30,736 nucleotides of DNA from Candidatus Aerophobota bacterium (GCA_021163155.1 JAGGXI010000119.1:1-30736); one strand, 5' to 3'; counted from the first letter of the stretch, positions 2,017 to 29,101 are shown. Numbers and translations are program-made. Notes: generated by a model not told the origin, from the letters alone.

Positions 2017-3657
2017 GTGGCTGCAAATACTGAACACCAATTGGTGGGTTTCAATTTAGAGGAGGAGAAATTTGGGGTGGACATAATGGACGTCCAGGAG
2101 ATAATAAAGATACCCGAGATTACCAGGGTTCCCAAAGCCCCATCCTTTGTAGAAGGAGTGATAAATTTAAGGGGGCAGGTTTTACCGGTGATTGATTGCC
2201 GTAAGCGGTTCGACTTAGATTCCAGGGAACGGGTGGATTCTAATCGCATCATCGTGATAAACATTGAAGGCAAAACAATGGGGATAATTGTGGATTCCGT
2301 ATCTGAGGTCTTGCGTCTGCCGGATGAGGCTGTTGAGCCACCTCCACCTATTATTACTGGTGTAGATGCTGAGTATTTAGACGGAATAGGCAAAATGGAG
2401 GATGGTAAATATCTAATTAGCCTCCTTAATTTAAAAAAATTTTTAAATGTTGAGGAAATGGGAAACTTCTCGGAGGATTTCAGTTCCAACGTTAATCAGA
2501 AAAATGATGAAGCTAATGAAATTAAGACAGAGGGAATTTCTTCTAATGAAGTTCAATTGGTGGGTTTTAAATTAAGTGAAGAGGAGTATGCAGTGGGTGT
2601 TTCAGAAGTACAGGAAATTATCCGGGTACCCGAGATTACCAGGATTCCCAAAGCTCCACCCTCTATAGAAGGGGTGATAAATTTAAGAGATAAGGTCTTG
2701 CCCATTCTCTCATTGCGTAAGAAATTTGACCTGAAGAATATTGAGAAGACGGATTCCCTTAGAATTATAGTGGTAAACGCGGGTGAGGTATCTATGGGAA
2801 TGATTGTTGACTCCGTCTCCGAGGTTCTGCGTCTATCTAAGGATACTATTGGGCCACCACCGCCTATTACCTCCGGCATTGATGCACAATACCTTAAGGG
2901 AATAGGGAAATTAGAAGAGGGGAAAAGGCTGCTTCTTCTTTTAGACCTGGTTAAGCTTCTAACCGCTTCGGAAAGGAAAAAACTTTCCAAATTAGGACAA
3001 GTTAATGAGAAAAACCTTAAAAATACAGAAGGGGGTGAAAGAAAAATGGCCGAAGAAGAACAATTGGTGAGCTTTAAAATTGAAAATGAGGAATTTGGAG
3101 TGGGGATTGAGGAGGTGCAGGAAATTATAAGGCTGCCGGAGATCACCAGGGTTCCCAAGGCTCCATCCTTTGTAGAGGGAGTGATAAACTTAAGGGGCAA
3201 TGTCCTTCCGGTAATTGATTTGCGAAAGCGTTTTGACCTGGAGGCTACCAAAAAGACGAATGCCACCAGAATTGTGGTGGTAAATGTGGATGATAAAACC
3301 ACGGGCATCATCGTTGACTCCGTCTCCGAGGTTCTGCGTTTGTCTAAGGACGCCGTTGAACCGCCGCCACCTATCGTGGCAGGAATTGAGGCTAAATATC
3401 TGCGGGGTATAGGTAAACTCAACGACGGCAAGAGGCTTATCGTCTTGCTCGACTTAAATGAGGTCCTCACAGTCAAAGAGAAAGAGGAATTGGCTCGGAT
3501 GGAGCTTAAAAAAAGTCAAGAGGCTGTTAAGAAACACGTTGAGCTGAAAACAGATGAGTCTAAAGAGATAGATAAGCCAGAGCCTGTTGAGGAGCCTGTG
3601 AAGTTGGAAAGCGCCAAACCCAGGGAGGTAGACCAACCAAAACCTGTTGAAAAGTGA
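2017..3657 (+). CDS. cheW: CheW-like adaptor with three CheW domains
   Basis: CheW couples chemoreceptors to the kinase CheA. Most CheW proteins are one domain of about 150 residues; this 546-residue protein has three, at about 6-146, 178-318 and 345-487. Each copy carries the VPKAP, EGVINLR and VDSVSEVLRL motifs. Domains 1 and 3 keep NLRG (50-53, 391-394); domain 2 has NLRD (222-225) and LPILSLR in place of LPVID, so it is the most diverged. The last 60 residues are a Pro/Glu/Lys-rich tail. The GTG start at 2017 is chosen because GGAGG lies 5 bases upstream (2007-2011). An internal ATG at 3046 (residue 344), just before domain 3, has GGGGGTGA at 3031-3038 and could start a free single-domain CheW. 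The stop codon sits at the edge of a GTGAGA-type heptamer repeat. Confidence 0.95.
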   Translation: MAANTEHQLVGFNLEEEKFGVDIMDVQEIIKIPEITRVPKAPSFVEGVINLRGQVLPVIDCRKRFDLDSRERVDSNRIIVINIEGKTMGIIVDSVSEVLRLPDEAVEPPPPIITGVDAEYLDGIGKMEDGKYLISLLNLKKFLNVEEMGNFSEDFSSNVNQKNDEANEIKTEGISSNEVQLVGFKLSEEEYAVGVSEVQEIIRVPEITRIPKAPPSIEGVINLRDKVLPILSLRKKFDLKNIEKTDSLRIIVVNAGEVSMGMIVDSVSEVLRLSKDTIGPPPPITSGIDAQYLKGIGKLEEGKRLLLLLDLVKLLTASERKKLSKLGQVNEKNLKNTEGGERKMAEEEQLVSFKIENEEFGVGIEEVQEIIRLPEITRVPKAPSFVEGVINLRGNVLPVIDLRKRFDLEATKKTNATRIVVVNVDDKTTGIIVDSVSEVLRLSKDAVEPPPPIVAGIEAKYLRGIGKLNDGKRLIVLLDLNEVLTVKEKEELARMELKKSQEAVKKHVELKTDESKEIDKPEPVEEPVKLESAKPREVDQPKPVEK

Positions 3658-12747: not shown

Positions 12748-12957
12748 AATAGAGGATTAGAGGATTAAAGGGAAAGAGATATCGGTAGCCGCAGGCTTTA
12801 GCCTGCGAAGAGGTAAGACGTAAAAAGTGAGACGGTAGCCGCAGGCTTTAGCCTGCGAAAAAAGGGTGAAACGGTAGCCGCAGGCTTTAGCCTGCGAAAA
12901 AAGGTGAGACGGTAGCCGCAGGCTTTAGCCTGCGAAGAGGTAAGACGTGAGAGGTAT
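12748..12957. repeat. Tandem array of four identical REP units with heptamer and octamer repeats
   Basis: Four copies of a 24-base unit, GGTAGC followed by CGCAGGCTTTAGCCTGCG, start at 12784, 12834, 12873 and 12911. The first is preceded by AGAGGATT-type octamers and GGGAAAGAGATA. The copies are separated by short AAGAGGTAAGACGT or AAAAAAGGTGAGAC stretches of the heptamer type. All copies are in the same orientation. The array forms the broken 3' end of the ATPase pseudogene on the - strand. Confidence 0.92.
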
Positions 12958-13304
12958 GATTTTTATACCTCTTATTGTAGCATAAACCAATTTCAACTTT
13001 TGCCCATCTTCATCCGCATACTGAAATTCATCTATCATAAAGTACGCAGTTTCGCTGCTTTGTACAGGAAAATACGAGTAGACAAAAGAAACAGGGTCAG
13101 CCTCAAATTCCATAAGTAATCTTCTATCTTCAAAAGTTACAATCTGTATCAAGTCTCTACTAATCTTTAGCTCTCTTAATAAATACTCTCTAATAATTTC
13201 TAAAAAGGTGGTTTTCCCAGCCTGCCTTGGGCCTATTACTGCTATAAATTCTCGTCTTTTTAAGAATATTTTATTTTATTGATTAAATTTCTCTGAATAA
13301 TCAT
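12925..13304 (-). pseudogene. AAA-type ATPase (ATP-binding plus DUF4143 family) remnant, frameshifted and truncated
   Basis: Reading the - strand from an ATG at 13302-13304 gives MIIQRNLINKIK, then the frame breaks. One base appears to be missing in an A-rich run around 13268-13272. After it the frame continues FLKRREFIAVIGPRQAGKTTF (Walker A), and later AYFMIDEFQYADEDG (Walker B region). These are hallmarks of the roughly 400-residue ATPases of the DUF4143 type. The protein stops at LTSYLFAG, encoded by heptamer and REP sequence, just where the sensor-1 region would follow. Both a frameshift and a 3' truncation are therefore visible. A TTG at 13152 would give a 75-residue frame, but it is internal to this remnant. 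Confidence 0.8.
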
Positions 13305-13340
13305 CTTTTACCTTACTATTGATGTATTAACAACAATTAT

Positions 13341-13368
13341 AGTATAACTGATTTTACAAATATGTTAA
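13341..13368 (-). promoter_or_regulatory. Sigma70-type promoter of the ATPase pseudogene
   Basis: On the - strand TTAACA (complement of 13363-13368), a 16-base spacer and TATACT (complement of 13341-13346) lie about 40 bases upstream of the pseudogene ATG, which is itself preceded by AAGGT. Confidence 0.55.
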
Positions 13369-13484
13369 GAATATCTCGGGACTTTTCCCCTTCGTCGCTA
13401 TAAAATTTGCCATCCTACCCATAATTATTTTTTTACATTTTCTTTTGTTAGCTAAAATTTAATTAACAATTTTACATTTTCTTT

Positions 13485-13513
13485 TTGACAAATCGCTTTT
13501 TATATATTATTAT
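13485..13513 (+). promoter_or_regulatory. Strong sigma70-type promoter
   Basis: TTGACA (13485-13490), a 17-base spacer and TATTAT (13508-13513) lie 20 bases before the ATG at 13533, which has AGAGG as a ribosome binding site. The match is nearly consensus. A 16-base direct repeat (TTTTACATTTTCTTTT) occurs at 13431-13446 and 13470-13485 and runs into the -35 box. Confidence 0.7.
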
Positions 13514-13532
13514 AGTTTATAGAGGTAAAAAA

Positions 13533-14021
13533 ATGAGGGGCTATAGACATATACCTATCAAAGAAAAAGTCCTAATAGTCTGTCAGATAATAGCCGGGGA
13601 GAAGATACAACTCGTAGCCAATGAGCTTCAGATGCCTTGGAGGAAGCACTAAAACTGGAAAAACGGGGACCCAAGTTAAGAAGGCTCGAGTTCGATGTAA
13701 AAGATAAGGTAATCAAAGAACAAAAGGAAGAAATAGGAAGGCTAGCTAAAGGATATCGTTGAAAAGAGAGAGAAACAGATTGAAAATTTGAAAAGAAAAA
13801 TGAGTTTTCAGAAAAAGAGTATTCCTCGTCCTTCAAAGTGCCCCTATTGTGGATTTGAGAAGATATACAAAAATGGCACCTATAAGATAAAGACGGAAAA
13901 GTTTCTTAATGAGTTTAGAAAGGGGAAAGAAAAAGAGATAATAGTTCAACAGTTCATCTGTCCTTAGTGTAAGAGCACTGTTCATTTCTCAGAAAATAAG
14001 AGAAAAATCATTTTTCTTTAA
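13533..14021 (+). pseudogene. Degraded DNA-binding / zinc-ribbon gene, probably a transposase remnant
   Basis: The first frame (13533-13652) reads MRGYRHIPIKEKVLIVCQII and onward with a helix-turn-helix look (VANELQM), then stops. The reading continues in another frame with EALKLEKRGPKLRRLEFD and a coiled coil, stops again, and continues in a third frame with a zinc-ribbon-like motif CPYCGFEKIYKNGTY. The partner CPxC is interrupted by an in-frame TAG at about 13965. The HTH, coiled-coil and zinc-ribbon order suggests an IS-type transposase or its accessory protein, but I do not recognise the family. The strong promoter upstream is intact. Confidence 0.6.
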
Positions 14022-14540
14022 TACCCATAGTACCAAATTAAAGTAACCCTATAATGATGTAAAATAATTATTAATTTTTAAAATATATTCAAATCAAAGC
14101 TACTCGTGCACCTTTAAATTTCCTTTAAATAACCTTAAAATTAGAATTTACCTTCAATTTTTCAGAAATTACCCTTGACAATTTTAATATTTTGTTTTAT
14201 ATTTATAATTGGAATAAAATAAACATTGCAGGTTAAAGCGCGGCTACCAGACACCCATACCTTTGTAGATTCTGACTGAGTCTTATAGATAGCAGTTTAC
14301 TATCTCTATTCTCAATCCCTTGATTTTTTGAATCTTTTACTCTCTTTAAAGTAAGAGAGCTCATTAAAGTTCTCCACCTGGGTAGGGGAGGCTTAGCCTC
14401 CCAATCGCTTTTTAACTCTTGCTTCACAAAGGGCGATTAGTCTCGCCCCTGCCCACAAGTGGGTTGTTTAAAATTTTGGTGGGTTGAAGTAGGTTAAAAA
14501 TAGAGGGAAATAAGCTCTTTTCTGAATGTTTTTCAGGAAT
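14022..14540. other. Non-coding, hairpin-rich stretch upstream of the riboswitch
   Basis: No plausible gene is seen. The first part is AT-rich. After a candidate promoter at 14175-14203 there is a half REP (GCGCGGCTACC near 14240) and several inverted repeats: AGATAG...CTATCT (14287-14305), CTCTCTT...AAGAGAG (14340-14359), GGGAGGCT-t-AGCCTCCC (14386-14402, next to GTAG at 14382) and GGGCGA...TCGCCC (14431-14448). The latter two look like another REP family read from the - strand. Confidence 0.6.
14175..14203 (+). promoter_or_regulatory. Possible sigma70-type promoter for the riboswitch leader
   Basis: TTGACA (14175-14180), a 17-base spacer and TATATT (14198-14203). It is the best promoter match upstream of the riboswitch and would give a leader of more than 300 bases before the aptamer. 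A nearer start site cannot be excluded, although I found no good box in 14440-14530. Confidence 0.45.
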
Positions 14541-14624
14541 AGCCGATAAAGGTAAACCATCTAAAAGGATGGGGCACAAAGTCACAGATCTTCTTTAAAA
14601 AAGATAGCTGAACTACCGAAGCTA
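14540..14624 (+). promoter_or_regulatory. Class I cyclic di-GMP riboswitch aptamer (GEMM-I)
   Basis: The conserved GEMM-I segments are all present in order: GATAAAGGTAAACC (14545-14558), P2 hairpin CCATCT-aaaa-GGATGG (14557-14572), GGGCACAAAGTCACAG (14572-14587), a variable P3 arm closed by CAG/CTG (14585-14587 with 14608-14610) and AGCTGAACTACCGA (14606-14619). P1 can form from TAGC (14540-14543) with GCTA (14621-14624). These match the known consensus including the invariant AAACC, GCACAAAG and CTACCGA blocks. The P2 loop is AAAA rather than the usual GNRA-type loop. An intrinsic terminator follows at once, and the controlled gene is a FleQ-like sigma54 activator at 14715. Confidence 0.93.
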
Positions 14625-14626
14625 AT

Positions 14627-14665
14627 AAAACCCCATTCTTTCATATCTAAGAAATGGGGTTTTTT
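14627..14665 (+). terminator. Intrinsic terminator: expression platform of the riboswitch
   Basis: AACCCCATT (14629-14637) pairs with AATGGGGTT (14653-14661), the stem extends by CTT/AAG with one bulged A, and six T residues follow (14660-14665). Its 5' arm, CCCCATTC (14631-14638), could alternatively pair with GGATGGGG (14567-14574) of the aptamer P2 and flank. This gives a simple terminator/antiterminator switch. Confidence 0.88.
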
Positions 14666-14714
14666 ATTTATAGATAAAACCATTTAAGATTGCTTCTATT
14701 AAAAAGGTTATTCA

Positions 14715-16118
14715 ATGCTTAAAAAATTTTCTATTCTCATAGCAATCAGGCAAATAGAATCCTTCCAAAAGATAACTAATTCATTAAAAGAAGAGGGATA
14801 TTGTATTAAATTAGTTGAAAATAGCAAAGAAATATTAGAGAAAATTCGAAGAAAAAAATTTGATTTAATTATAATTGATTTAGATAAAAAATTAAACAAT
14901 GTAGAAATCCTTAAAAAAATAAAGACAATTTTGCCAGAAGTAAAGATAATCATTCTTTTAAAACCAACTGAGGTAAAAAATACCCTTAAATTGATCAAAG
15001 AAGGCATTTATGACTATCTTAAGAAGCCTTTCATTTGTGATGAGTTAAAGATATTAATTCGTAGAGCAATAGGAGATAAGAGTAAAGAAGATTCTTTATT
15101 AAAGTCATTAAAGACAAAGAAAAATTTTGAAAATGTTATCATCGGTGAAAGTAAAAAAATCCAAAAAATACTTCAAGATGCTCAAAATATAGCCCCTACG
15201 GACATTACTGTCTTAATTCAAGGAGAAACAGGAACGGGTAAAGAATTAATTGCTTCTACAATTTATAGCCTAAGCAAACGTAAAAATAAACCTTTTCTTA
15301 AAATAAACTGCGCTGCTTTACCTGCAGATCTTTTAGAAAGCGAGCTTTTTGGACACGAAAAAGAAGCCTTTACAGGGGCCGACCATCCAAAATTTGGTTT
15401 ATTTTCCTGCGCTGATAAAGGAACTATACTTTTGGATGAGATATCTGAGGCAAGTTTAGACCTTCAGGCAAAGCTACTACGTGTAGTAGAAGAAAAAGAA
15501 TTCATTAGAGTAGGAGGAAGGAAGTCTATAAAGGTTGATGTTCGAATTATTGCTGCCAGTAATAAAGATTTGGAGGAATGTATCCAAAAAGGAAAATTTA
15601 GAAGAGATTTATATCATCGTTTAAATATCTTTCCTATATTTATTCATCCTTTAAGAGAAAGGAAAGAAGATATTCCCCTGTTACTGCATTTCTTCCTTAA
15701 CCAGCATAATAAAAAGCTTAATAAAAATATTGAGGGAGTATCTGAGGAAGTAAAAAAAATTTTCTTAAATTATGAGTGGCCTGGAAATGTAAGAGAATTG
15801 AAAAATTTACTATTAGTAATGGTTATTAATTGCAAAGAGAGGATAATTACCATAAAAGATATTCCCAAATCTTTTTTTAAGAAAAGTGAAGGCCCTTGTT
15901 CTAAAACTTTTCTTCCCGATATTCCCCCTTCTTTTAAGGAGGCAAAACAAAATATTATAAATTCCTTTGAGGAGACTTACTTCAAGAGTTTACTTTATAC
16001 ATATAAAGGAAATATTCTCCGCTCTGCTGAAAGTGCTCAAATAACTCGCCCGTTTCTTTATAAAAAGATAAAGGAACACAAAATTGACCTATCAGACTTT
16101 AGATCAGGGGAGAATTAA
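14715..16118 (+). CDS. Sigma54-dependent activator with degenerate receiver, FleQ/FlrA-like
   Basis: The 467-residue protein has a receiver-like domain (1-120), an AAA+ domain (about 138-385) and a Fis-type HTH (about 425-456). The receiver keeps Asp55 and Lys104 but lacks the acidic pair (ILIAIRQ instead of ILVVDDE) and the Thr switch, so normal phosphorylation is unlikely; this resembles FleQ. AAA+ motifs are GETGTGKE (170-177) and TILLDE (237-242). The sigma54-contact loop reads EAFTGA (217-222) rather than GAFTGA, a rare change. A GEMM-I riboswitch and terminator lie directly upstream, so cyclic di-GMP probably controls its synthesis. It probably activates the sigma54 flagellar promoters in this window. 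Whether the protein itself also binds cyclic di-GMP, as FleQ does, cannot be judged. Confidence 0.9.
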   Translation: MLKKFSILIAIRQIESFQKITNSLKEEGYCIKLVENSKEILEKIRRKKFDLIIIDLDKKLNNVEILKKIKTILPEVKIIILLKPTEVKNTLKLIKEGIYDYLKKPFICDELKILIRRAIGDKSKEDSLLKSLKTKKNFENVIIGESKKIQKILQDAQNIAPTDITVLIQGETGTGKELIASTIYSLSKRKNKPFLKINCAALPADLLESELFGHEKEAFTGADHPKFGLFSCADKGTILLDEISEASLDLQAKLLRVVEEKEFIRVGGRKSIKVDVRIIAASNKDLEECIQKGKFRRDLYHRLNIFPIFIHPLRERKEDIPLLLHFFLNQHNKKLNKNIEGVSEEVKKIFLNYEWPGNVRELKNLLLVMVINCKERIITIKDIPKSFFKKSEGPCSKTFLPDIPPSFKEAKQNIINSFEETYFKSLLYTYKGNILRSAESAQITRPFLYKKIKEHKIDLSDFRSGEN

Positions 16119-16399: not shown

Positions 16400-16416
16400 T
16401 GGCATTTATTTTGCTT
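16400..16416 (+). promoter_or_regulatory. Sigma54 (RpoN) promoter
   Basis: TGGCATTTATTTTGCTT has the -24 GG (16401-16402) and -12 GC (16413-16414) separated by exactly 10 bases, with TGGCA and TTGCT blocks as in the sigma54 consensus. It lies 56 bases before the ATG at 16473, in an AT-rich region. Confidence 0.85.
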
Positions 16417-16472: not shown

Positions 16473-16844
16473 ATGGCTTCTATATTAGTTGCGGATGATG
16501 ATAAATTTATTCGGGATTACCTGCGAAATGTATTAATTGAAGAAGAATATAATGTGCAAACAGTGGAAAGCGGAAGTGCAGCTATAAAAAAAATCCTCAA
16601 ACAGAATTTTGATGTTCTTATCCTTGATATCCATATGTCAGGAATAAATGGATTAGAGACAATTTCCTTTATAAAAAGTGTACATCCTAATCTACCTATC
16701 ATTGTTATTACTGGAGATGCCTCTATGCAGACAGAAAAAAGAGCTCGAGAAGAAGGTGTCTTTTGTTATTTTACTAAGCCTTTAAATATAAAAGGATTAA
16801 AACAGGTAATAACATCAGCTTTAAAGACGAGGGCAGAAAAATGA
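16473..16844 (+). CDS. Single-domain response regulator (CheY-like)
   Basis: A 123-residue receiver with no output domain. It keeps the acidic cluster Asp8-Asp10 (VADDDKF), the phosphorylation site in LILDIHMSG, the Thr of IVITGDA and Lys of FTKPLN. It is the first gene after the sigma54 promoter, and its stop overlaps the start of the next gene (ATGA at 16841-16844). It may be a second CheY or a phosphorelay protein of the flagellar system. Its position in a sigma54 operon between two flagellar regulators suggests a flagellar rather than an array role. Confidence 0.9.
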   Translation: MASILVADDDKFIRDYLRNVLIEEEYNVQTVESGSAAIKKILKQNFDVLILDIHMSGINGLETISFIKSVHPNLPIIVITGDASMQTEKRAREEGVFCYFTKPLNIKGLKQVITSALKTRAEK

Positions 16845-17059
16845 AAGAAGAAAAGTTGTCTTCTTCTAAAATAATAAAGAAAGAAGAGATTAGCCTTACG
16901 GATAAACCTATATTAATCAAGTCAGCTTATAACAATCATTCTATGAAAATCAATTTAAAAAAAGAGGGAGAAATAATAAGAGTAATTGAAGTTATCTGCT
17001 CCTGCGGAAATAAAATAAATATAATTTGTGAGTATGAAAATGAAAATTTCTCTACTTAG
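16841..17059 (+). CDS. Small CxC protein of unknown function
   Basis: A 72-residue protein, Lys-rich at the N-terminus, with a C-terminal segment RVIEVICSCGNKINIICEYE. This gives Cys53, Cys55 and Cys63, a half zinc-ribbon or metal-binding look. I do not recognise the family. Its start overlaps the preceding receiver gene by four bases and its end overlaps the next gene, so it is tightly coupled within the sigma54 operon. No membrane segment is seen. Confidence 0.7.
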   Translation: MKEEKLSSSKIIKKEEISLTDKPILIKSAYNNHSMKINLKKEGEIIRVIEVICSCGNKINIICEYENENFST

Positions 17060-19121
17060 TCTTCATAATTTTTTTCTTCGTATTATTAAAATTTTTTCTT
17101 CAGGAAAATTATTTTTAGTTAAATTTATTAAGTTCATACCAGGCTTACTCTCTGTAAAAGACTTTTTTAAAAAAACAAAAAGGATAATCCTTAAAAAAAC
17201 AAAAATATCATTAGGTATCTTATTCTTGTTACTAATAGCTATTTTTACAATGTTTGAAGTATCTCCTCCGTTGTTAAATAAAGAATCAAAACTTGAAAAC
17301 TACCTTCAAAAAGCGGAAAATCTCTATAAAGAAAAGCGTTACAATGAAGGAAGGAAAATTTACGAAAAAATTATTGAAGAATTTCCTCAAAGAAAAGAAA
17401 AGATAGATTTAGCTTATTATCGAGTGGGCGAAGGCCTCCAGAAATGTGAACTTTTTCATCAATCTATTACCATTTATGAAAAATTTATTCAACAATATCC
17501 TCACTCAGACTACTTATTAAAAGCCAAATATAATTTATCCTCCTGTTATAAAAAAATAGGAAGAATAGAAAAAGCAGAACAAATTTTAAAAGAAATTATA
17601 AATGAATCTCCCCGAAATGAGATGATGCCAGAGGTATATTTTCTCCTTGCAGATTGCCTTAGAGAACAAAATAAGAATAAAGAGGCTGTACCTATTTATC
17701 AAAAAGTCATCAGAGAATATCCAGCAAGCTTACAAGCAGAAAGATCTTACCTTAGATTAGGAGATATCTATCTTCAAAAAAAGAGATATTCAGAAGCTAT
17801 GCTATGCTACTCTTCTCTCCTTAAAGAATATCCCAGAACAATCCTTAGAGATAAAGCTCTCTTTAAACTTGCATTGTCCTCTTTCTCTCAAAAAGAGGTA
17901 GATAAAACTATCTCCTTGCTCCTTACTATTTTGGATGAATATCCTCGAAGTGATTTTTTAGATGAATCTTTCTTTCTCTTAGGAGAATGTTTTTGTCAAA
18001 AGAAAGAATATGAAAAAGTTTTAATTATTTTTCAAAAAATGGAAAAAATTTATGAAGATAACCCCCTTGTCTTAACTAAAGCGAAAAGAAAAATAGCTGA
18101 GCTTTATTTAAATGAAAAAAAATATACAGAAGCAGCAAAGATATATGAAAATATTATAAAGAACTATGCTTACTACTGCGAGGGTGAGGATAAAATCTAT
18201 TTTGAATTGGGCTCTTTATACCAAAAAATTGGCAGTGATGATAAGGCAAAAAAGACCTTGATGAATTTTATTCAATATTTTCCCCTTTCTCCCGAAATCT
18301 CTTCAGCTTATTTTAAATTAGGGGAAATATTCTTTAAGCAAGGGTTTTACTTAGAATCTATCAAAGCTTTCCAGGAAGCAATAGAGGAAAAGCTCTCTAA
18401 AGAAAAGACAGGAAAAGCTCTTTCTAAAATAGGAGAAGGATATATGAGGTTAGGTCTCTGGAATGAGGCATTAAACACTTTTGAAAAAAGTCTGTGTTAT
18501 CTTAATGAAAGAGAAAACCTGAGAATGCAGTTTAAAATAGAAGAATGTCTCCTAAGAAAAAGAGATACTTCTGCTGCCAAAAAATTTTCTTCATCTCTTC
18601 TTAAAAAACCTTTTACAAATTACCCTTTTTCGGAAGAATATTTAAAAATAGGGGACATTTTAAATATCTACGGAGAAAAAAGGATAGCTCTTGAAATGTA
18701 TAAAAAAGCTCTGCTTAATTTACCACCGGAGGGAGAAAAATTTTATTTCACTTTATATAAAATAGGCAATATTCAAAAGAATGTAGGCCTTATTAATCAG
18801 GCTTTCAAAACTTATAAAGGAATTATATATCTAACTAAAAAAGATAAACTTTTTTCAAAAAATAAGATAAGAAAAGATGCTTTGCTTTCTCTCGCTGACC
18901 TTTATTATTCTTTAAAAAAGTATGAAAATGCTTCTCTTTTATATACACAGATTGCTACAGACTTTCCTGAAAATAAAGACATTAGTTGGGTTCTTTACCA
19001 AATAGGTAATTGTTATCAACACTTAGGACTGCCCAACAAAGCAAGAACATTTTATCAAGAATTGATAAAAAATTTTGGTGATAACTTATGGGCACAAATA
19101 GCCAAAACAATAATGATGTAA
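17028..19121 (+). CDS. Membrane-anchored protein with many TPR repeats
   Basis: The protein has up to 697 residues. A basic N-terminus is followed by one hydrophobic segment (about 59-77, ISLGILFLLLIAIFTMF), so the rest probably lies outside the cytoplasmic membrane. From about residue 88 to the end there are many TPR/BamD-like repeats with signatures such as YQKVIREYPAS and YKKIGRIEKAEQIL. The GTG at 17028 is the longest start; ATG codons at 17034 or 17040 are as likely, and no clear ribosome binding site is seen. It overlaps the CxC gene, so translational coupling is probable. A scaffold of the flagellar motor or its assembly is plausible from the sigma54 operon context, but the protein is not recognisable as a named flagellar component. 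Confidence 0.82.
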   Translation: MSMKMKISLLSLHNFFLRIIKIFSSGKLFLVKFIKFIPGLLSVKDFFKKTKRIILKKTKISLGILFLLLIAIFTMFEVSPPLLNKESKLENYLQKAENLYKEKRYNEGRKIYEKIIEEFPQRKEKIDLAYYRVGEGLQKCELFHQSITIYEKFIQQYPHSDYLLKAKYNLSSCYKKIGRIEKAEQILKEIINESPRNEMMPEVYFLLADCLREQNKNKEAVPIYQKVIREYPASLQAERSYLRLGDIYLQKKRYSEAMLCYSSLLKEYPRTILRDKALFKLALSSFSQKEVDKTISLLLTILDEYPRSDFLDESFFLLGECFCQKKEYEKVLIIFQKMEKIYEDNPLVLTKAKRKIAELYLNEKKYTEAAKIYENIIKNYAYYCEGEDKIYFELGSLYQKIGSDDKAKKTLMNFIQYFPLSPEISSAYFKLGEIFFKQGFYLESIKAFQEAIEEKLSKEKTGKALSKIGEGYMRLGLWNEALNTFEKSLCYLNERENLRMQFKIEECLLRKRDTSAAKKFSSSLLKKPFTNYPFSEEYLKIGDILNIYGEKRIALEMYKKALLNLPPEGEKFYFTLYKIGNIQKNVGLINQAFKTYKGIIYLTKKDKLFSKNKIRKDALLSLADLYYSLKKYENASLLYTQIATDFPENKDISWVLYQIGNCYQHLGLPNKARTFYQELIKNFGDNLWAQIAKTIMM

Positions 19122-19455: not shown

Positions 19456-19902
19456 ATGAGTTTATCATTAGAAGAAGAGAGAAAACTACAAGAAAAGTGT
19501 GAGGAAGAGTTAAAACTTTATGAAAATATGTTTCGCATCGCTTTAGAGCAGAAAAAAGCCATTAATTTAAAAGAGACAAAGGCTCTCCTTTCTCTCCTTA
19601 ACAAAAGAAAAAGAGTAATCAACAAAATAGAAGCAATAGAAAATGAGATTGCTTCACTTAAAAAAACAATGAAAGAATCAAAGGATTCTTTTTGCAATAA
19701 TAAAATAGCTTCTTTAATGGAAAAAATAGCTTCTTTAATGGAAAAAACCTTAAGACAGGATGTAAAAAATCAGTCCTTACTTAAGAATTTTATTAAAAAT
19801 ATCAGCCAGAATCTTGAGCATATACAGACAGGTAGAGCATTACATAATGCTTATGGAAAACATAGTTTTCCAGAATCTCGTTTTATGAATTATAAAACAT
19901 AA
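19456..19902 (+). CDS. flgN: FlgN-like flagellar export chaperone
   Basis: A 148-residue, all-helical protein. Features typical of the FlgN family are the EEELKLYENMFRIALEQKKAI start, a KRKRVINKIEAIE middle, NQSLLKNFIKNI near the C-terminus and the final HNAYGK motif. FlgN holds the hook-filament junction proteins FlgK and FlgL before export; those genes are not in this window. A perfect 21-base tandem duplication (19705-19725 and 19726-19746) encodes IASLMEK twice. It adds one heptad to the coiled coil without breaking the frame. The call rests on pattern and context, hence moderate confidence. Confidence 0.7.
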   Translation: MSLSLEEERKLQEKCEEELKLYENMFRIALEQKKAINLKETKALLSLLNKRKRVINKIEAIENEIASLKKTMKESKDSFCNNKIASLMEKIASLMEKTLRQDVKNQSLLKNFIKNISQNLEHIQTGRALHNAYGKHSFPESRFMNYKT

Positions 19903-19903: not shown

Positions 19904-19965
19904 AGTAGCCGCAATTTTAAGTTGCACAAATAACGCACACGCAGGCTCTGAGCCTTGCGGCTACC
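19904..19965. repeat. Degenerate REP/BIME-like element
   Basis: Starts AGTAGCCGCAATTTTAAGTTGC and ends with GCAGGCTCTGAGCCTTGC and GGCTACC. It begins two bases after the flgN-like stop. The false upstream start (TTG at 19955) of the following kinase lies inside it. Confidence 0.75.
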
Positions 19966-19990
19966 AAAGTTGTACAAAAGGAATAAAATA

Positions 19991-21313
19991 TTGAAAGAAA
20001 AACTTCTTCAGAAAAAAAGAGATGAAATGAGTCTTCTCACAAACGCCTTTAGTAGCTTTAATCAAGCGACACAGACTTTAAGAGAAAGCTACCAAACCTT
20101 AAAATATCAAATTGCCCGTTTAAATAAAGAGTTAGCTGAAAGCAATGAAAAGTTAAACCGAAAAGTTGAAGAACTTAATAGAACTCGCAACTATTTAAAT
20201 AATATTCTGGACAGTATGACAGAAGGACTTATAGCTCTTAACTATAAGGGGGAAATAACCCTTCTTAATAAAACAGCAGAAATTATTTCTGGCTATAAGT
20301 CGAATGAAGTCCTTGGTTTGTCTTACCAACAGCTCTTTGGGCGGGGAAACAGAGCCTTTTCTTCAATTTTAGAAAAGAGTTTAAGAGAAAAAAAGTCTTT
20401 AATGGGAGAAAGAAAATTCTATACTCCTAATAAATCTCTCCTTCTTGAAGTGAGCACCAATCCTATAAATAATAAGAAAGGAGAAATAGAAGGAATTTTA
20501 GCTGTATTTCGAGATATCTCCATTATAAAAGAACTTCAGGAAGAAATTCGCCGAAAGGAAAGACTAGCAATATTAGGAGAAATGGCAACAACTATTGCTC
20601 ATGAAATAAGAAATCCCTTATCGGGAATTGAGGGATTTGCTCTACTTTTAAAAGAAAATCTAAAAGATGGCTTAAAAGAAAAAAAATGGATTGACAATGT
20701 CGTAAGAGGAACAAGAAGTTTGAATAGTCTTCTTACAAATTTATTAGACTTTACCCATCCTATAAAACCCAATTTTCACCAGATAGAGATAAAAAAGGTA
20801 ATAGAGGAAAGTCTATTATTTATTACTCAGAAAATCCAAGAAGAAAAACTTAATATTCAAATCGAAAAAAGATTACCCTCGGGTTCTATAAAAATAAATG
20901 GGGATTCCATTTTACTTAAACATGCATTTTTAAATCTGTTGCTTAATGCTACCCAGGCTATCTCTGAAAAAGGAAAAATAACCATTAGTATAAACAAAAA
21001 AGTACATTCCTGCTTGAGGAGCCGTAAATTTTTCAAAGAATGGGAAGGAGACTATATATTAGCTAAATCCTTTGAAGATATTTATATAAATTTTTCTGAT
21101 ACAGGATGTGGTATTTCTTCAGAGGAAAAGAAAAAAATATGCCAGCCCTTTTACACTACTAAATCTAAAGGATGTGGTTTGGGATTGGCTATTACTCAAC
21201 GAATCATTCAAAATCATGGAGGGATGATAAAAGTAGATAGTAAAAAAGATAAAGGAAGTACCTTTACAGTCATTCTCCCCTGCTGGCAGGAAGTGAGACG
21301 TGAGAAGGTGTGA
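19991..21313 (+). CDS. Cytoplasmic sensor histidine kinase, FlgS-like
   Basis: In numbering from the TTG at 19991 (440 residues): a coiled coil at about 25-70, a PAS domain at about 72-180, the HisKA box with His204 (TIAHEIRNPLSGI), the N box around Asn319 (LLLNATQAI), G1 DTGCGI and G2 GCGLGLAI. No membrane segments are seen, so it senses an internal signal. TTG 19991 has AAAAGGAA at 19976-19983; the frame is open to 19955, but those codons belong to a repeat. An ATG at 20027 is a further possibility. The last seven residues (EVRREKV) and the stop come from a heptamer repeat. Its neighbour is the NtrC-type regulator at 21359. The pair matches the FlgS-FlgR system that responds to the assembly of the export apparatus and controls sigma54 flagellar genes. 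Confidence 0.88.
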   Translation: MKEKLLQKKRDEMSLLTNAFSSFNQATQTLRESYQTLKYQIARLNKELAESNEKLNRKVEELNRTRNYLNNILDSMTEGLIALNYKGEITLLNKTAEIISGYKSNEVLGLSYQQLFGRGNRAFSSILEKSLREKKSLMGERKFYTPNKSLLLEVSTNPINNKKGEIEGILAVFRDISIIKELQEEIRRKERLAILGEMATTIAHEIRNPLSGIEGFALLLKENLKDGLKEKKWIDNVVRGTRSLNSLLTNLLDFTHPIKPNFHQIEIKKVIEESLLFITQKIQEEKLNIQIEKRLPSGSIKINGDSILLKHAFLNLLLNATQAISEKGKITISINKKVHSCLRSRKFFKEWEGDYILAKSFEDIYINFSDTGCGISSEEKKKICQPFYTTKSKGCGLGLAITQRIIQNHGGMIKVDSKKDKGSTFTVILPCWQEVRREKV

Positions 21314-21358: not shown

Positions 21359-22702
21359 ATGTCCATAGAAAATATTCTCGTAGTAGATGATGAGCCTTTA
21401 ATTCGAGAACTTTTAGAGGAAATTCTTAAAAAAGAAGGCTATAGTGTGAACACAGTAAAAAATGGTCTATCAGCCTTAAAGAAGATTAAAGAACATCACT
21501 TCGATTTGATAATAACAGATGTGCGAATGCCCGATATGGACGGAATAACGCTCTTAAAAAAAATAAGAGAGTCTTCCTTCTCTATTCCTGTAATAGTAAT
21601 CACCGCTTACGGAAGTATAGAAAATGCTGTAGAAGTTATGAAAAAAGGAGCAGATGATTATATCACTAAACCTATTACTCCTGCTCAACTTAAACTCACT
21701 GTTCAAAAAATATCAAAACAGAGAAATTTATTACAGGAGAATAGATACTTAAGAAGAGAAATAGAACAGAAATACGGTTACAAAGAGTTGATAGGAAAAA
21801 GTCAAGCAATGAGAGAAGTTTACAAAATGATTGATCGAGCAGCTTTAAGCAAGAGTACAGTGCTTATCTCTGGTGAAACAGGGACAGGTAAAGAACTTGT
21901 AGCCAGAGCAATTCATCATCGGAGTTCTCGTCGAGATAAACCTTTTATAAGTGTAAATTGTGCTGCTTTGCCAAAAGACCTTTTAGAAAGTGAACTCTTC
22001 GGCCATGAAAAAGGGTCTTTTACAGGAGCAATAAGCAAAAGAGAGGGAAGGTTTGAGTTAGCAGACAAGGGAACACTCCTTTTAGACGAGATAAGCGCTA
22101 CAATACCTGCTTTTCAAGCAAAACTGCTTAGAGTATTACAGGAGGAAGAGTTTGAGCGTGTAGGAGGAAACAAGACCATTAAAGTTGATGTAAGAATAAT
22201 TGCCACTACCAATAAAAATCTTAAAAAAATGGTAGAAAAAGGGGAGTTTAGAGAGGATCTTTATTATCGTCTTAATGTAATCCCTATACATCTTCCCCCT
22301 TTAAGAAAAAGAAAAGAAGATATACCACTGTTGGCTCAATTTTTTCTGAAGAAATATAACCATAAAAATGGGGGAGAAGTTAAAGAAATCTCAAAGGAAT
22401 GTTTCAAAATAATGGAAGAGTGCCTATGGCCCGGAAATGTGCGGGAGTTAGAAAATGTTATAGAAAGAGCCGTAGTGATGAATAAAGAGAAGACTATTCT
22501 CCCTCAAAATTTTGCTTTAGATATTTCTTGCTCCAATGAAAGGATAAATTTACCGGAAAATATTACCATTAAAGAGATGGAGAAAAAACTCATTAAAGAG
22601 ACTCTCCAAAAAATGAAAGGCAATCGAACAAAAACAGCAAAAACATTAGGAGTGAGTATACGCACTATTCGTAATAAGATAAAAGAATACCAGTTATGGT
22701 AG
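21359..22702 (+). CDS. NtrC-family sigma54-dependent response regulator, FlgR-like
   Basis: The 447-residue protein has a complete receiver (Asp10, Asp11, Asp54, Thr82, Lys104). The AAA+ domain carries GETGTGKE (172-179), GSFTGA (219-224, a common variant of GAFTGA), Walker B LLLDE (240-244), GNVRELENV and FYKRL-like RLNVIP. The C-terminal Fis-type HTH is recognisable in TKTAKTLGVSIRTIRNKIKEY. It lies directly after the FlgS-like kinase and before a sigma54 promoter for flgB, so it is the likely phosphorylation-dependent activator of rod and basal body genes. GGAGATTTTAAAA precedes the ATG. Unlike the activator at 14715, all phosphorylation residues are intact. Confidence 0.92.
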   Translation: MSIENILVVDDEPLIRELLEEILKKEGYSVNTVKNGLSALKKIKEHHFDLIITDVRMPDMDGITLLKKIRESSFSIPVIVITAYGSIENAVEVMKKGADDYITKPITPAQLKLTVQKISKQRNLLQENRYLRREIEQKYGYKELIGKSQAMREVYKMIDRAALSKSTVLISGETGTGKELVARAIHHRSSRRDKPFISVNCAALPKDLLESELFGHEKGSFTGAISKREGRFELADKGTLLLDEISATIPAFQAKLLRVLQEEEFERVGGNKTIKVDVRIIATTNKNLKKMVEKGEFREDLYYRLNVIPIHLPPLRKRKEDIPLLAQFFLKKYNHKNGGEVKEISKECFKIMEECLWPGNVRELENVIERAVVMNKEKTILPQNFALDISCSNERINLPENITIKEMEKKLIKETLQKMKGNRTKTAKTLGVSIRTIRNKIKEYQLW

Positions 22703-22806: not shown

Positions 22807-22823
22807 TGGCATAAATTTTGCTT
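22807..22823 (+). promoter_or_regulatory. Sigma54 (RpoN) promoter of the flgB operon
   Basis: TGGCATAAATTTTGCTT with GG at 22808-22809 and GC at 22820-22821, exactly 10 bases between them. It is nearly the same sequence as the promoter at 16400. The flgB ATG follows 33 bases later. Confidence 0.87.
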
Positions 22824-22856: not shown

Positions 22857-23225
22857 ATGGGCTTGGTAAGGGGAGATTTAACCTACTTTCTCTTAAAAAA
22901 GTCTCTGGATGCTTATTTTTTAAGACATAAAGTCATAGCCAATAATATTGCTAATGCAGATACTCCAGGATTTAAAAGAGGAGAGGTTATTTTTGAAGAA
23001 AAACTTAAAAAGGCATTAGGAGGGAATTTTCCTTTAAATAAACTCGAAGAGGTAAAACCTGAAATTGTATTAGATTTAAATTCTTCCTGGAGAGAAGATT
23101 TCAACAATGTAGATATAGAAAAAGAGATGGTTAATCTTTCTAAAAGTTCTTTACAGTATAATCTATGCATCCAGCTCATAGATAAAAAGTTTCAAAGAAT
23201 AAAGATGGCCATCCAGGGAAAATAA
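22857..23225 (+). CDS. flgB: Flagellar basal body rod protein FlgB
   Basis: FlgB forms the proximal rod of the flagellar basal body. The 122-residue protein has the rod-protein signature IANNIANADTPGFKRGEV (27-44) and a C-terminal EKEMVNLSKSSLQYN segment, both classical for FlgB. CAGGAG precedes the ATG. It is the first gene of the operon behind the sigma54 promoter and is followed by flgC after 32 bases. FlgB is exported by the flagellar type III apparatus and has no cleaved signal peptide, as expected. Confidence 0.97.
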   Translation: MGLVRGDLTYFLLKKSLDAYFLRHKVIANNIANADTPGFKRGEVIFEEKLKKALGGNFPLNKLEEVKPEIVLDLNSSWREDFNNVDIEKEMVNLSKSSLQYNLCIQLIDKKFQRIKMAIQGK

Positions 23226-23257
23226 TTTAACGACTTTTAAACCGGGAGGTAAAAGAA

Positions 23258-23674
23258 ATGTCTTCTCTATTTTCAACAATGAATATTAGCTCCTCAGGGA
23301 TGAGTGCTCAGAGAATTCGTATGGATATAATTGCCAGTAATATAGCCAATGCTCAAACTACACGAACCCCACAGGGAGAAGGACCCTATCGAAGAAAAGA
23401 GGTTGTTTTTGCTACTCTCCTTGAAGATATGAAAAAGGGAGAGAGAGGAGTAGATATGGTAGGCATATTCCCGGATCCATCTCCTTTTAAAATGGTCTAT
23501 AAACCTCAACATCCTGATGCTAATGCCCAAGGATATGTATCTATGCCTAACGTGAATATAGTTACGGAGATGATTGACATAATTTCAGCTACACGAGCTT
23601 ATGAGGCGAATGTTACTGCTTTTAAATCTACTCAAAATATGATTCTTAAGGCTATGGAAATAGGGAGGAGATAA
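23258..23674 (+). CDS. flgC: Flagellar basal body rod protein FlgC
   Basis: A 138-residue rod protein with the N-terminal SSGMSAQRIRMDIIASNIAN motif, VSMPNVNIVTEMIDI and the C-terminal TRAYEANV helix (about 112-119), all diagnostic for FlgC. GGGAGG lies just upstream of the ATG. Its stop codon shares one base with the fliE start (TAATG at 23672), so the two are coupled. Confidence 0.97.
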   Translation: MSSLFSTMNISSSGMSAQRIRMDIIASNIANAQTTRTPQGEGPYRRKEVVFATLLEDMKKGERGVDMVGIFPDPSPFKMVYKPQHPDANAQGYVSMPNVNIVTEMIDIISATRAYEANVTAFKSTQNMILKAMEIGRR

Positions 23675-23982
23675 TGGAAGAAAATCAATCTATTCAATCT
23701 TCTTTTCCTTTAAGAGAAATACCGAAAATAGCGGAGAGAAATTTAGCAAAAATCGGGAAAGAAAATTCCTTCAAAGAAATTTTAACAAATCTTGTTGATA
23801 AAGTTAACAATCTTGAGAATAATGCCGACCAATCTATTCAAAAATTGGTTACAGGAGAAACAGACAACATTCATCAGGTGATGATTGCCGTTGAAGAAGC
23901 TGATCTTGCTTTCCGTATGATGATGGAGATAAGAAACAAATTGGTAGAAGCCTATCAACAGATTACACATATGCAGATGTGA
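23674..23982 (+). CDS. fliE: Flagellar hook-basal body protein FliE
   Basis: FliE joins the MS ring to the rod. The 102-residue protein shows the conserved C-terminal half: FKEILTNLVDKVN, GETDNIHQVMIAVEEADLAF and LVEAYQQITHMQM. It is the third gene of the flgB-flgC-fliE order common to many flagellates. The start overlaps the flgC stop by one base. A 448-base gap full of repeats separates it from fliF. Confidence 0.96.
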   Translation: MEENQSIQSSFPLREIPKIAERNLAKIGKENSFKEILTNLVDKVNNLENNADQSIQKLVTGETDNIHQVMIAVEEADLAFRMMMEIRNKLVEAYQQITHMQM

Positions 23983-24430
23983 AAACAGGATTAAAGGGAA
24001 AGAGATACCGGTAGCCGCAGGCTTTAGCCTGCGAAGAGGTGAGATGTGAGGGGAAAAAACAGGATTAAAGGATTAGAGGATTAGAGGATTAGAGGGAAAA
24101 AAGCAGTGAGACGTGAACCGGTAGCCGCAAGGCTCAGAGCCTGCGAAGAGGTGAGATGTGAGGGGAAGAAGCAGGATTAGAGGATTAAAGGATTAAAGGG
24201 AAAGAGACACCGGTAGCCGCAGGCTTTAGCCTGCGAAGAGGTGAGATGTGAAAGGCAAAAAATAGGATTAGAGGATTAGAGGGAAAGAGATACCGGTAGC
24301 CGCAACCTTTACCCCGTTAGATAGTAGTAACATCTAATGGGGTTTAGGTTGCGTAAAGAAAGATTATTACATGAGAACGCAGGCTAAAGCCTGCGGCTAC
24401 CGAGGGGGAGATATCTATTAAGGATATAAA
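23983..24430. repeat. Composite array of REP units, octamers and heptamers between fliE and fliF
   Basis: No gene is present. REP units start at 24010, 24120 (variant GCAAGGCTCAGAGCCTGC), 24212 and 24295. Each of the first three is followed by AAGAGGTGAGATGTGA. Before each unit come AGGATTAG/AGGATTAA octamers in tandem and, in most cases, GGGAAAGAGATACC. The last unit is compound (24295-24401): it has the nested hairpin 24311-24343 (ACCCCGTTAGAT...ATCTAATGGGGT, loop AGTAGTAAC), then CGCAGGCTAAAGCCTGCG and GGCTACC. AAGGA at 24420-24424 is the fliF ribosome binding site. Confidence 0.92.
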
Positions 24431-26050
24431 ATGGACTTTTTAAAACAAGTTAAAGAACAACTTCTATCAATCTGGAAAAGACTGGAAAAACGTCAAAAAA
24501 TATTCTTAATATCATCAACAGCTATTTTTCTGGTATCTCTTATTATTTTAATTAACTGGGCATCCCATCCAGAGTATTCTCTGCTTTACTCAAATCTTGC
24601 TTTACAGGATGCAGGAGAAATTGCAAATAAATTAAAAGAAAAGAAAATTACTTATAAAATAGAGAATGGTGGAAAAACAATTCTTGTACCTTCTTCAGAT
24701 GTTTACGAGATGCGTCTTCAATTGGCTATGGAAGGTGTTCCCAAAAGTGGACAGATTGGTTTTGAAATATTTGATAATACTAACATTATAGGAATGACCA
24801 ATTTTATGGAGAAAGTAAATTATCAAAGAGCTTTGCAGGGAGAATTATCTCGGACAATCCAAAGCCTAAATGAAATATCACAGGCACGGGTTCATCTGGT
24901 TCTTCCCGAATCATCTTCTTTTATTGAAAAAAAGAAATTAGCAAGAGCATCGGTAATGATAAAACTTAAACCTGGTAAGTGGCTAGCAAAAAAGCAGGTT
25001 ATGGGCATTGCTAACCTTATAGCCAGCAGTGTGGAAGATTTAACCACTAAGAATATCACCATTATAGACGAGAAAGGAAATATGCTTTTAGGCGGAGAAG
25101 AAAATGACGAAACTACTTATCTTAGTGGAAATCAAATAGAGCTAAAAAGAGACGTAGAACAATATCTTACAAACAAAATCCAACTTTTATTAATTCCTGT
25201 ATTAGGTGTAGGAAAATCTGCAGTTACTGTAGATGCAAAGTTAAATTTTGACCAGATAAGAAAAACAGAAGAGCGATACGACCCTGAAGGAAAAGTAGTT
25301 AAAAGTGAAGTGAGAAGTGAGACTACGAGAGAAGGAGGCGGTGGAGTTATAGGAGGAAGCCCTGGGGTTAAAACAAACTTAGGTCAAAACAGCCTTTTAT
25401 CTCAAGGGTTAAATCCAGAAAAAGAGACAAAAGAGGAGAGCAATATACAATATGCTATAAATAAGACTATAGAGGATACAATAGGAGAGGTAGGGAATAT
25501 AGAAAAACTATCTATCGCTGTAGCCGTTGATGGAACTTATAAAACCGGTCCTGATGGCAAAAATGAATATATCCCTCGAAGCAAGGAAGAGATAGATAAA
25601 CTCGTTTCTATTATTAAAGGAGCTATAGGATATAACTCCTCTCGTGGGGACACAATTGCAGTAACTAATGTTCCTTTTATTTCATCTCTTCCTGAAGCTG
25701 AAGAAAAAGGTCTTTTGGGTAAAATAATAGGGCCTGAATTCTTAAGATCTCTTCCTAAGTATATCATCATAGGAATATTAATCTTAATGTTATTTTTACT
25801 TCTGCGTCCAATAATAAAAGCTGTAAGTTCCTTTAAAATATCACCCATGGAAGAGAAAGTGCCTTCCAGAGTAAAGCCAGAACAAGTAATAAAAAGGGAA
25901 GAAGAAATTATTCCTTTTAAAGAAGGACAGTTACCCGGAAAGGAACTATTATACAGAAAAGAGATATTTAAGGCGGTTGAAGAAAAACCAGAAGACATTG
26001 CCCAAATAATTAGAGTATGGCTTACAAATCATAAAGGAAAGAAAAAATGA
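24431..26050 (+). CDS. fliF: Flagellar MS-ring protein FliF
   Basis: FliF builds the MS ring in the cytoplasmic membrane, on which the switch and the export gate assemble. The 539-residue protein has a first membrane segment at about 24-43, a ring-building periplasmic domain with conserved MTNFMEKVNYQRALQGELSR and ARVHLVLPE, a second membrane segment at about 441-460 and the C-terminal FliG-binding tail (EEKPEDIAQIIRVWL). The length is normal. Bases 25304-25324 match the heptamer repeat of the intergenic regions but keep a plausible FliF sequence (KSEVRSET). The stop overlaps the fliG start (ATGA). Confidence 0.97.
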   Translation: MDFLKQVKEQLLSIWKRLEKRQKIFLISSTAIFLVSLIILINWASHPEYSLLYSNLALQDAGEIANKLKEKKITYKIENGGKTILVPSSDVYEMRLQLAMEGVPKSGQIGFEIFDNTNIIGMTNFMEKVNYQRALQGELSRTIQSLNEISQARVHLVLPESSSFIEKKKLARASVMIKLKPGKWLAKKQVMGIANLIASSVEDLTTKNITIIDEKGNMLLGGEENDETTYLSGNQIELKRDVEQYLTNKIQLLLIPVLGVGKSAVTVDAKLNFDQIRKTEERYDPEGKVVKSEVRSETTREGGGGVIGGSPGVKTNLGQNSLLSQGLNPEKETKEESNIQYAINKTIEDTIGEVGNIEKLSIAVAVDGTYKTGPDGKNEYIPRSKEEIDKLVSIIKGAIGYNSSRGDTIAVTNVPFISSLPEAEEKGLLGKIIGPEFLRSLPKYIIIGILILMLFLLLRPIIKAVSSFKISPMEEKVPSRVKPEQVIKREEEIIPFKEGQLPGKELLYRKEIFKAVEEKPEDIAQIIRVWLTNHKGKKK

Positions 26051-27066
26051 AAGAAGATACATATCAGCTTACAGGTAAACAAAAAGCAGCTATTTTTTTA
26101 ATCAGTTTAGGAAAGGAAAGAGCAGCTGGAATCTTAAAAAAATTGGATATAGAAGAAGTTGAGCAATTAACTCAGGAGATAGCTAATTGGGATAATATTT
26201 CTCCAGAATTAATCAAAGAAGTATGGAAAGAGTTTTCTCAGATGAAATTAGCTCAACATTATGCTAATCAAGGAGGGGAGAAATATGCTCGGGAGATATT
26301 AGAAAAAGCATTAGGAGACCATAAAGCATTAGATATTATAAATAATTTAAAACAGAGAACAGACCTTCTTCCTCTTGATATTCTGGAAAGTATTGATCCT
26401 CAGCAATTACTCAGCTTTCTTCAATCAGAACATCCCCAAACTATTGCTCTTATTCTTTCACATTTAAAGTCAAAGCAGGCTGCTATCATTCTTTCATCTT
26501 TACCTGAAAAACTTCAATTAGAGGTAACTACAAGAATTATTAATATAGAAGAGGCATCGCCAGAAGCACTTAAAGAAGTAAATAAAATATTGAGAAAGGA
26601 ATTTTCTTATACTTCTGAGAAAGGGAGATTACAAAAAGTAGGAGGAACAAAAATGGTAGCAGAAATTCTTAACAGAGTAGACAGAGCCACAGAGAAGAGG
26701 ATTATGGAAGCTATGGAAAAAAGAGATGCTCAATTAGCAAAGAATGTAAAAAACTTAATGTTTGTTTTTGAAGATATTCTCTCTCTTGATGACCGTTCTT
26801 TACAACGAGCTTTAAGAGAAATGGATACCAAAGAATTAACCCTTGCTCTTAAAGGAGCAGACAAGAAGCTGAAGGAAAAATTCTTTAAGAATCTATCCTC
26901 TAGAGCTGTAGAAACCATTAAAGAGGATATGGAATTTATGGGGCCGGTGCGACTGCGAAATGTAGAGGAAGCTCAGCAAAAGATTGTAAACATAATGAGA
27001 AGATTAGAAGAAAAAGGGGAAATAGTAGGTCGACAAAGGGAAGAGGGGGAGCAGCTAATTGTTTAA
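26047..27066 (+). CDS. fliG: Flagellar motor switch protein FliG
   Basis: FliG forms the rotor ring that receives torque from the stator. The 339-residue protein has an N-terminal FliF-binding domain, the middle domain with SEHPQTIALILSHL, and a C-terminal torque domain with FVFEDILSLDDRSLQRALRE and MGPVRLRNVEEAQ. The charged residues of the torque helix are present. The start overlaps the fliF stop by four bases, and its own stop overlaps the TTG start of fliH by eight bases. Confidence 0.97.
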   Translation: MKEDTYQLTGKQKAAIFLISLGKERAAGILKKLDIEEVEQLTQEIANWDNISPELIKEVWKEFSQMKLAQHYANQGGEKYAREILEKALGDHKALDIINNLKQRTDLLPLDILESIDPQQLLSFLQSEHPQTIALILSHLKSKQAAIILSSLPEKLQLEVTTRIINIEEASPEALKEVNKILRKEFSYTSEKGRLQKVGGTKMVAEILNRVDRATEKRIMEAMEKRDAQLAKNVKNLMFVFEDILSLDDRSLQRALREMDTKELTLALKGADKKLKEKFFKNLSSRAVETIKEDMEFMGPVRLRNVEEAQQKIVNIMRRLEEKGEIVGRQREEGEQLIV

Positions 27067-28986: not shown

Positions 28987-29101
28987 AAAACAGAAGTGAA
29001 ACGTGAGAAAAATACGAATTGCATCTATCATTTTTTATGTTTTATGAATCAGGGGCAATGGCATTATTATTTAAACTGTTGAATATAGGATTAAATTATA
29101 A
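28987..29101. other. Spacer between fliI and fliJ
   Basis: Starts with a short heptamer stretch (AAGTGAAACGTGAGAAA) right after the fliI stop. The rest is AT-rich with no clear promoter; TGGCATTATTATTT near 29060 has no matching -12 GC and is not a sigma54 promoter. Confidence 0.5.

Follow-up and report, generated by a model that had tools for sequence, protein, structure and literature searches.

A predicted cyclic di-GMP-I riboswitch in front of a sigma54 activator gene and flagellar cluster in Candidatus Aerophobota

Cyclic di-GMP generally opposes flagella, and the level at which it acts varies: it may bind an activator protein, as with FleQ and FlrA, or a riboswitch on a structural operon, as in C. 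difficile. FleQ above FleSR and FlrA above FlrBC share the two-tier layout that concerns us here. The class-I switches of C. difficile, one of which precedes the flgB operon, are mostly OFF switches (PMC6200980), and in one of them, Cd1, the aptamer and the terminator coexist, with a transiently stable antiterminator that refolds later (PMC9262584). A c-di-GMP-I riboswitch has been predicted before a sigma54-dependent activator (bEBP) gene annotated as norR in Oleidesulfovibrio alaskensis G20 (PMC11124144), and the flagellar cascade of Desulfovibrio vulgaris, outside the Gammaproteobacteria, combines a FlrA/FleQ-like bEBP with a two-component bEBP (DVU2894/DVU1063; PMC4641369). Our search, to which the subscription literature including the original GEMM surveys was largely closed, did not turn up any description of a top-tier flagellar sigma54 activator under the control of a c-di-GMP riboswitch.

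The locus described here lies in a 30,736-nucleotide stretch of DNA from a Candidatus Aerophobota bacterium (the window; Table 1). We read positions 14540-14671 as a transcriptional c-di-GMP-I OFF riboswitch on a top flagellar sigma54 activator with a two-tier cascade below it, and give this reading a probability of about two-thirds. Without ligand, the 5' arm of the terminator would capture the 3' strand of helix P2 as an antiterminator, the terminator would form too late, and RNA polymerase would continue into the activator gene. Binding of c-di-GMP would lock P2 and leave the 5' arm free, so that the terminator would form and the activator would not be made. When made, the activator would act with sigma54 at the promoter at 16400 to express the next tier, from the single-domain receiver to the FlgR-like regulator, and the latter would in turn use the promoter at 22807 to express the flgB operon. 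High levels of c-di-GMP would in this way turn flagella off by blocking synthesis of the top activator, not by binding a protein as with FleQ and FlrA.

Table 1. Features of the riboswitch-activator locus and the genes behind it (window coordinates)
Feature	Position	Strand	Remarks
Possible sigma70 promoter, TTGACA-17-TATATT	14175-14203	+	11/12 consensus bases; upstream of riboswitch
c-di-GMP-I (GEMM-I) aptamer	14540-14624	+	RF03167 and RF01051, signature bases; outer P1 pairs UAGC/GCUA counted in
Antiterminator strand 1	14564-14574	+	Loop end and 3' strand of helix P2, AAAGGAUGGGG
Intrinsic terminator	14627-14671	+	Hairpin 14627-14663 (-15.4 kcal/mol), then U-rich tail
Antiterminator strand 2	14631-14641	+	Terminator 5' arm, CCCCAUUCUUU
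Sigma54-dependent activator (bEBP), 467 aa	14715-16118	+	Degenerate receiver, AAA+, C-terminal HTH region
Consensus sigma54 (-24/-12) promoter	16400-16415	+	TGGCATTTATTTTGCT; between activator and second-tier genes
Single-domain receiver (CheY-like)	16473-16844	+	First gene behind 16400 promoter
TPR-repeat protein	17028-19121	+	Conserved second-tier cluster member
FlgN-like export chaperone	19456-19902	+	PF05130, E 2.5e-8
PAS sensor histidine kinase	19955-21313	+	FleS/FlgS-like position
NtrC-type response regulator, intact receiver	21359-22702	+	FlgR/FleR-like position
Consensus sigma54 promoter	22807-22822	+	TGGCATAAATTTTGCT; before flgB
flgB, flgC, fliE, fliF, fliG, fliH, fliI, fliJ and weak FlbB/MgtE_N-like protein	22857-30200	+	Basal-body/export genes

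The activator and the flagellar cluster behind it

The gene downstream of the terminator encodes a sigma54 activator, as the original prediction held: its product matches Sigma54_activat (PF00158, E 9e-69), an AAA lid and Response_reg, and carries the bEBP motifs GETGTGKE and LLDE (Walker A and B) and EAFTGA, which place it among the AAA+ activators. EAFTGA (15366-15383) is a variant of the GAFTGA found in all four orthologues described below. A Fis-type helix-turn-helix was matched by Pfam in 4/4 of these orthologues and not in the window copy. The receiver had been said to lack its phosphorylation residues, which proved to be so in part: the acidic pair is missing from every one of the five orthologues, and the window receiver has also lost the T/S residue but keeps the Asp (IID) and the lysine of KP. 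At the Asp position, the five orthologues have D/N/E/D/N.

The further description of the activator as FleQ-like is borne out by its position and presumed role only, not by family. Pfam found no FleQ-type N-terminal domain in the window protein or its orthologues, and among solved structures the protein is closer to the NtrC1/NtrC4 type than to FleQ (290.8 bits for NtrC1 versus 243.8 bits for FleQ). The c-di-GMP contacts of FleQ include R144 and R185 (PMC10723142). These two, the ones compared among R144, R185 and R334, align with N140 and S181 of the window protein, the FleQ residue numbers being set by offset from the full-length chain with one tag offset assumed. With no FleQ domain, NtrC1 closer and two arginines absent, membership in the FleQ/FlrA family is ruled out, and the activator probably does not sense c-di-GMP in the way that FleQ does, judging by its sequence. 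An activator that lacks the FleQ-type contacts fits a circuit in which sensing is located in the RNA.

Behind the activator lie a second tier of regulatory and chaperone genes and then basal-body and export genes, of which flgB and flgC were identified by PF00460, and FliJ and the FlbB-like protein by NCBIfam; the names fliE to fliI rest on sequence and order. The consensus TGGCAYN5TTGCW matches the window exactly twice, at 16400 and 22807, against 0.05 matches expected, an expectation that is slightly flattering because the Y was chosen after a first look that allowed two mismatches. Recurrence in relatives does not depend on the choice of consensus. Counterparts were found at the same two places in the relative G014 (10335, exact; 16179, one mismatch), before the receiver gene in G011 (822, minus strand, one mismatch), and at both sites in G012 in the relaxed form GG-N10-GC, read by eye. 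Gene order also recurs, throughout in G012 and from the TPR gene on in G014, and the synteny of the activator with the FlgN-kinase-FlgR-flgBC-fliEFG cluster is conserved. By gene order and promoters, the activator thus occupies the place of FleQ and FlrA in their cascades, above a kinase/NtrC-type flagellar pair with a sigma54 promoter. Our assignment of each activator to its sigma54 promoter, and the regulon that follows from it, are predicted from this layout.

The genome to which the window belongs encodes two domains each of the GGDEF and HD-GYP types, and no match to an EAL domain was found in it; c-di-GMP is thus plausibly both made and degraded. Within its assembly (G000, the window being contig C65), we found no sigma54 gene or DNA-binding domain and no flagellin; the only rod proteins are those of flgB and flgC, and FlhA and several bEBPs are present. 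Because sigma54 was found in four flagellated relatives, its absence here is probably a matter of incompleteness. Missing contigs are the likely explanation for the absence of both sigma54 and flagellin, and a real loss is possible. Elsewhere in the window, a protein with three consecutive CheW domains is encoded at 2017-3657, in a chemotaxis cluster that also has two CheR genes and a HEAT-repeat protein.

Conservation of the riboswitch-activator pair

To place the activator among its relatives, we searched 17 genomes of the phylum. The window protein and four relatives that are 46-54% identical to it make up a clade of five orthologues (support 100/100), separate from the FlgR-like paralogues. 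A c-di-GMP-I riboswitch lies upstream in 4/5 of them (the window genome G000, G016, G014 and G012), which represent four families. The order of the tree is G014, (G016, (G000, (G012, G011))), so that, provided that the drawn root of the clade is right, the switch is ancestral with one loss in G011. No riboswitch was found upstream of the G011 orthologue, where HDOD and HD-GYP genes stand instead. There the activator follows an HDOD gene and a GAF/HD-GYP gene (L065 2548-5078, minus strand), the second of which is a probable c-di-GMP phosphodiesterase and so possibly another link to c-di-GMP. We consider the odds even that the c-di-GMP brake on the top activator has moved from protein to mRNA, in a form ancestral to at least four families, with G011 having lost the switch and its HD-GYP neighbor making the link instead.

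Riboswitches of this class are common in the phylum, with 34 c-di-GMP-I matches in 15/17 genomes and up to 7 per genome. The genes 3' of the other switches include those for HD-GYP proteins (L018, L023), a subtilase (L002) and a weak match to type II secretion system protein K (L004), and some of these switches may therefore feed back on c-di-GMP breakdown. Paired aptamers of the class, on the same strand and about 150-200 bases apart, occur at L068/L030 (G003:C9 2705, 2904) and L009/L024 (G002:C67 842, 987) and are possible tandem riboswitches. Separately, G016 has a Moco/tungsten riboswitch (RF01055, 78.5 bits; L062 2798-2917, plus strand), flanked on one side by a molybdopterin-guanine dinucleotide-like gene, recognized by eye, and on the other by what seems to be a substrate-binding transport protein.

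These surroundings bear on whether the activator, though controlled by c-di-GMP, really stands at the head of the flagellar cascade. It could act mainly on targets elsewhere, in adhesion, pili or chemotaxis, with the flagellar cluster a mere neighbor: the pairing of activators with promoters is itself a prediction, the diversity of genes behind the other switches of the phylum is in keeping with such targets, and two flagellated relatives, G015 and G002, have no orthologue in the activator clade. We think this rather unlikely. The synteny with the flagellar cluster has been kept, sigma54 promoters flank the second tier, and the activator clade is confined to genomes with flagellar rod genes, being present in 5/7 of those and in 0/10 of the others (Fisher p 0.003, uncorrected for kinship).

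Switch mechanism and ligand

The terminator predicted to adjoin the aptamer is present, with its hairpin and U-rich tail, and does not overlap P1, so that the bound aptamer and the terminator can coexist. A generic scan did not list this hairpin, whose stem has a one-base bulge. The only competitor that we found for the terminator is an antiterminator that destroys P2, an 11-bp helix possible between the two strands given in Table 1, one G-U pair included. In partition-function folds of the growing transcript, P2 persists until 14633, the antiterminator dominates from 14641 to 14653 (0.99-1.0) and the terminator appears from 14661. Holding the aptamer in place without ligand at transcript ends 14640-14652 costs 9-10 kcal/mol, a sum that tight ligand binding could pay. 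Since the 3' strand of P2 pairs with the 5' arm of the terminator, ligand should cause termination, and on this folding model the switch is predicted to be OFF in the cell. The most stable full-length fold already contains the terminator without ligand, and the switch must therefore be kinetic.

Support for the antiterminator pairing comes from two comparisons. In the window, 1/1000 shuffles of the P2 segment gives a pairing with the arm as good as the real one. The MAFFT alignment of the orthologue leaders was too poor 3' of the aptamer for pair covariation, and a partner-exchange permutation was used in its place: in the 22 terminator-bearing riboswitches of the phylum, the strands pair with their own partners at a mean of -15.0 kcal/mol and with exchanged partners at -13.1 +/- 0.5 kcal/mol, the observed mean being reached in 1/20000 permutations, with kinship among the switches uncorrected. 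Part of the phylum's switches uses another platform. Among the orthologues, the P2/arm pairing is shared by G016 (-15.9); in G014 a terminator is present but the P2/arm pairing was not found (-2.0 kcal/mol), and no terminator was found behind the riboswitch of G012.

This variation among orthologues, together with the equilibrium preference of the full-length RNA for the terminator without ligand, would suit a switch that works on the activator in the opposite direction, with ligand promoting expression, or one that acts through translation or RNA stability with only partial termination. Such a switch is unlikely, given that aptamer and terminator are compatible, that the sole competitor is the P2-destroying antiterminator, and that the class-I switches of C. 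difficile, where tested, are mostly OFF.

The original prediction of a complete GEMM-I aptamer was confirmed by the Infernal search proposed along with it, in which RF01051 gave a significant covariance-model match over the aptamer (14541-14620, 62.4 bits against a gathering score of 35). No other c-di-GMP-I match turned up in the assembly, which totals 1.83 Mb and includes the window as one of its contigs. The sole Rfam match reported for the whole 30.7 kb window is to the related family RF03167 (c-di-GMP-I-GGC; 14542-14621, plus strand, full length by cmscan), at 61.1 bits (gathering score 59) and E 2.7e-12. The three signature bases of the ligand pocket are present, G20 as G14551, A47 as A14578 and C92 as C14616, in the numbering of Vc2. 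We read the GGC of the family name as positions 20/47/92 of the RF03167 model, whose consensus is G where the window has A14578 (position 47); a variant ligand suggested by the RF03167 match was ruled out on this ground. With its A47, the window aptamer bears the signature of ordinary c-di-GMP-I switches, even though RF03167 is the reported match of the clan (CL00126), and from these bases the pocket appears to be of the ordinary type, with c-di-GMP as its predicted ligand.

The outer P1 pairs appear in the aptamer-locked fold. The P2 tetraloop is AAAA, not GNRA, so the docking of a GNRA loop in P3 that is a feature of the class is lacking here, and the usual contact may be weak; a GNRA loop on P2 is usual for the class and not absolute, as the G012 switch illustrates. 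These departures, with one C-A mismatch in helix P3 and a variant family as the best Rfam name, might indicate an aptamer that has decayed or become specific for another cyclic dinucleotide such as c-AMP-GMP. We judge this very unlikely, since almost every switch of the phylum, this one included, retains G20 and A47, the U-A that stands in the place of C22-G45 is a compensated change, and sensors of c-AMP-GMP alter a pocket base (PMC9481103). Least probable of all is that the aptamer and its strong terminator serve mainly as a small RNA on their own or as a sponge for c-di-GMP, with the activator expressed from another promoter; such RNAs exist in the form of Bdellovibrio merRNA, but merRNA has no conserved downstream gene (PMC3627812), whereas the same gene follows the switch in four families, and the antiterminator pairing would serve a sponge no purpose.

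Upstream of the aptamer, the sigma70-like site at 14175 is a weak candidate, because promoter-like sites as a class are no commoner than in shuffled sequence. G+C-rich hairpins occur in the leader at 14340-14480, including 14386-14402 and 14448-14463; no Rfam family matched the leader (14210-14540) above chance, and the idea of a further structured RNA there was set aside. The region at 12990-14020 contains broken frames, with ATPase-like remnants on the minus strand and remnants of a transposase-like gene on the plus strand, which points to mobile DNA taken up 5' of the riboswitch. At 12780-12940, the palindrome CGGTAGCCGCAGGCTTTAGCCTGCGAA occurs four times, spaced, with a related copy near 19227, in the manner of a REP-like repeat.

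The idea that c-di-GMP controls a top flagellar activator at the RNA level is thus supported by the computed aptamer and antiterminator, the conserved pair and the sigma54 layout, and both the place of the activator in the hierarchy and the response to ligand are expected from them. With a conserved locus, a readable antiterminator and two sigma54 promoters, it can be tested directly in vitro and in a laboratory host, with no need to culture the organism itself.

Comparison with known flagellar circuits

The closest parallel for the switch is Cdi-1-3 (Cd1) of C. difficile, which has a class-I aptamer, transcriptional OFF logic, a competing antiterminator and a flagellar output (PMC6200980, PMC9262584). 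As in Cd1, the window switch would be kinetic, with the terminator in the final fold. Unlike Cd1, which acts on the structural flgB operon, it precedes a sigma54 activator gene, and its antiterminator takes the P2 strand, whereas that of Cd1 disrupts the binding pocket in its 3' part. The O. alaskensis case likewise has a class-I aptamer before an activator gene of the NtrC/NorR family, but it is a prediction only, in which the authors read a NorR gene and described neither a flagellar cascade nor a switch mechanism.

For the cascade, the nearest models are those of FleQ in Pseudomonas and FlrA in Vibrio, in which a bEBP with a degenerate receiver likewise stands above a kinase/NtrC-type pair, sigma54 promoters are used and c-di-GMP is an inhibitor of flagella. 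In those cascades c-di-GMP binds the protein, whereas the window protein has no FleQ domain and has N140 and S181 in place of R144 and R185. D. vulgaris offers a similar cascade outside the Gammaproteobacteria, but DVU2894, unlike the window activator, has no N-terminal domain, and the paper mentions neither a riboswitch nor c-di-GMP (PMC4641369).

We view the circuit as a clean and conserved arrangement of known parts. A switch at the level of synthesis would give a slower, committed shutdown, and binding to existing protein a fast and reversible one. If true, control of the top activator by a riboswitch would combine the two known modes, placing at the position held by FleQ and FlrA the RNA-level control that C. 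difficile applies to a structural operon.
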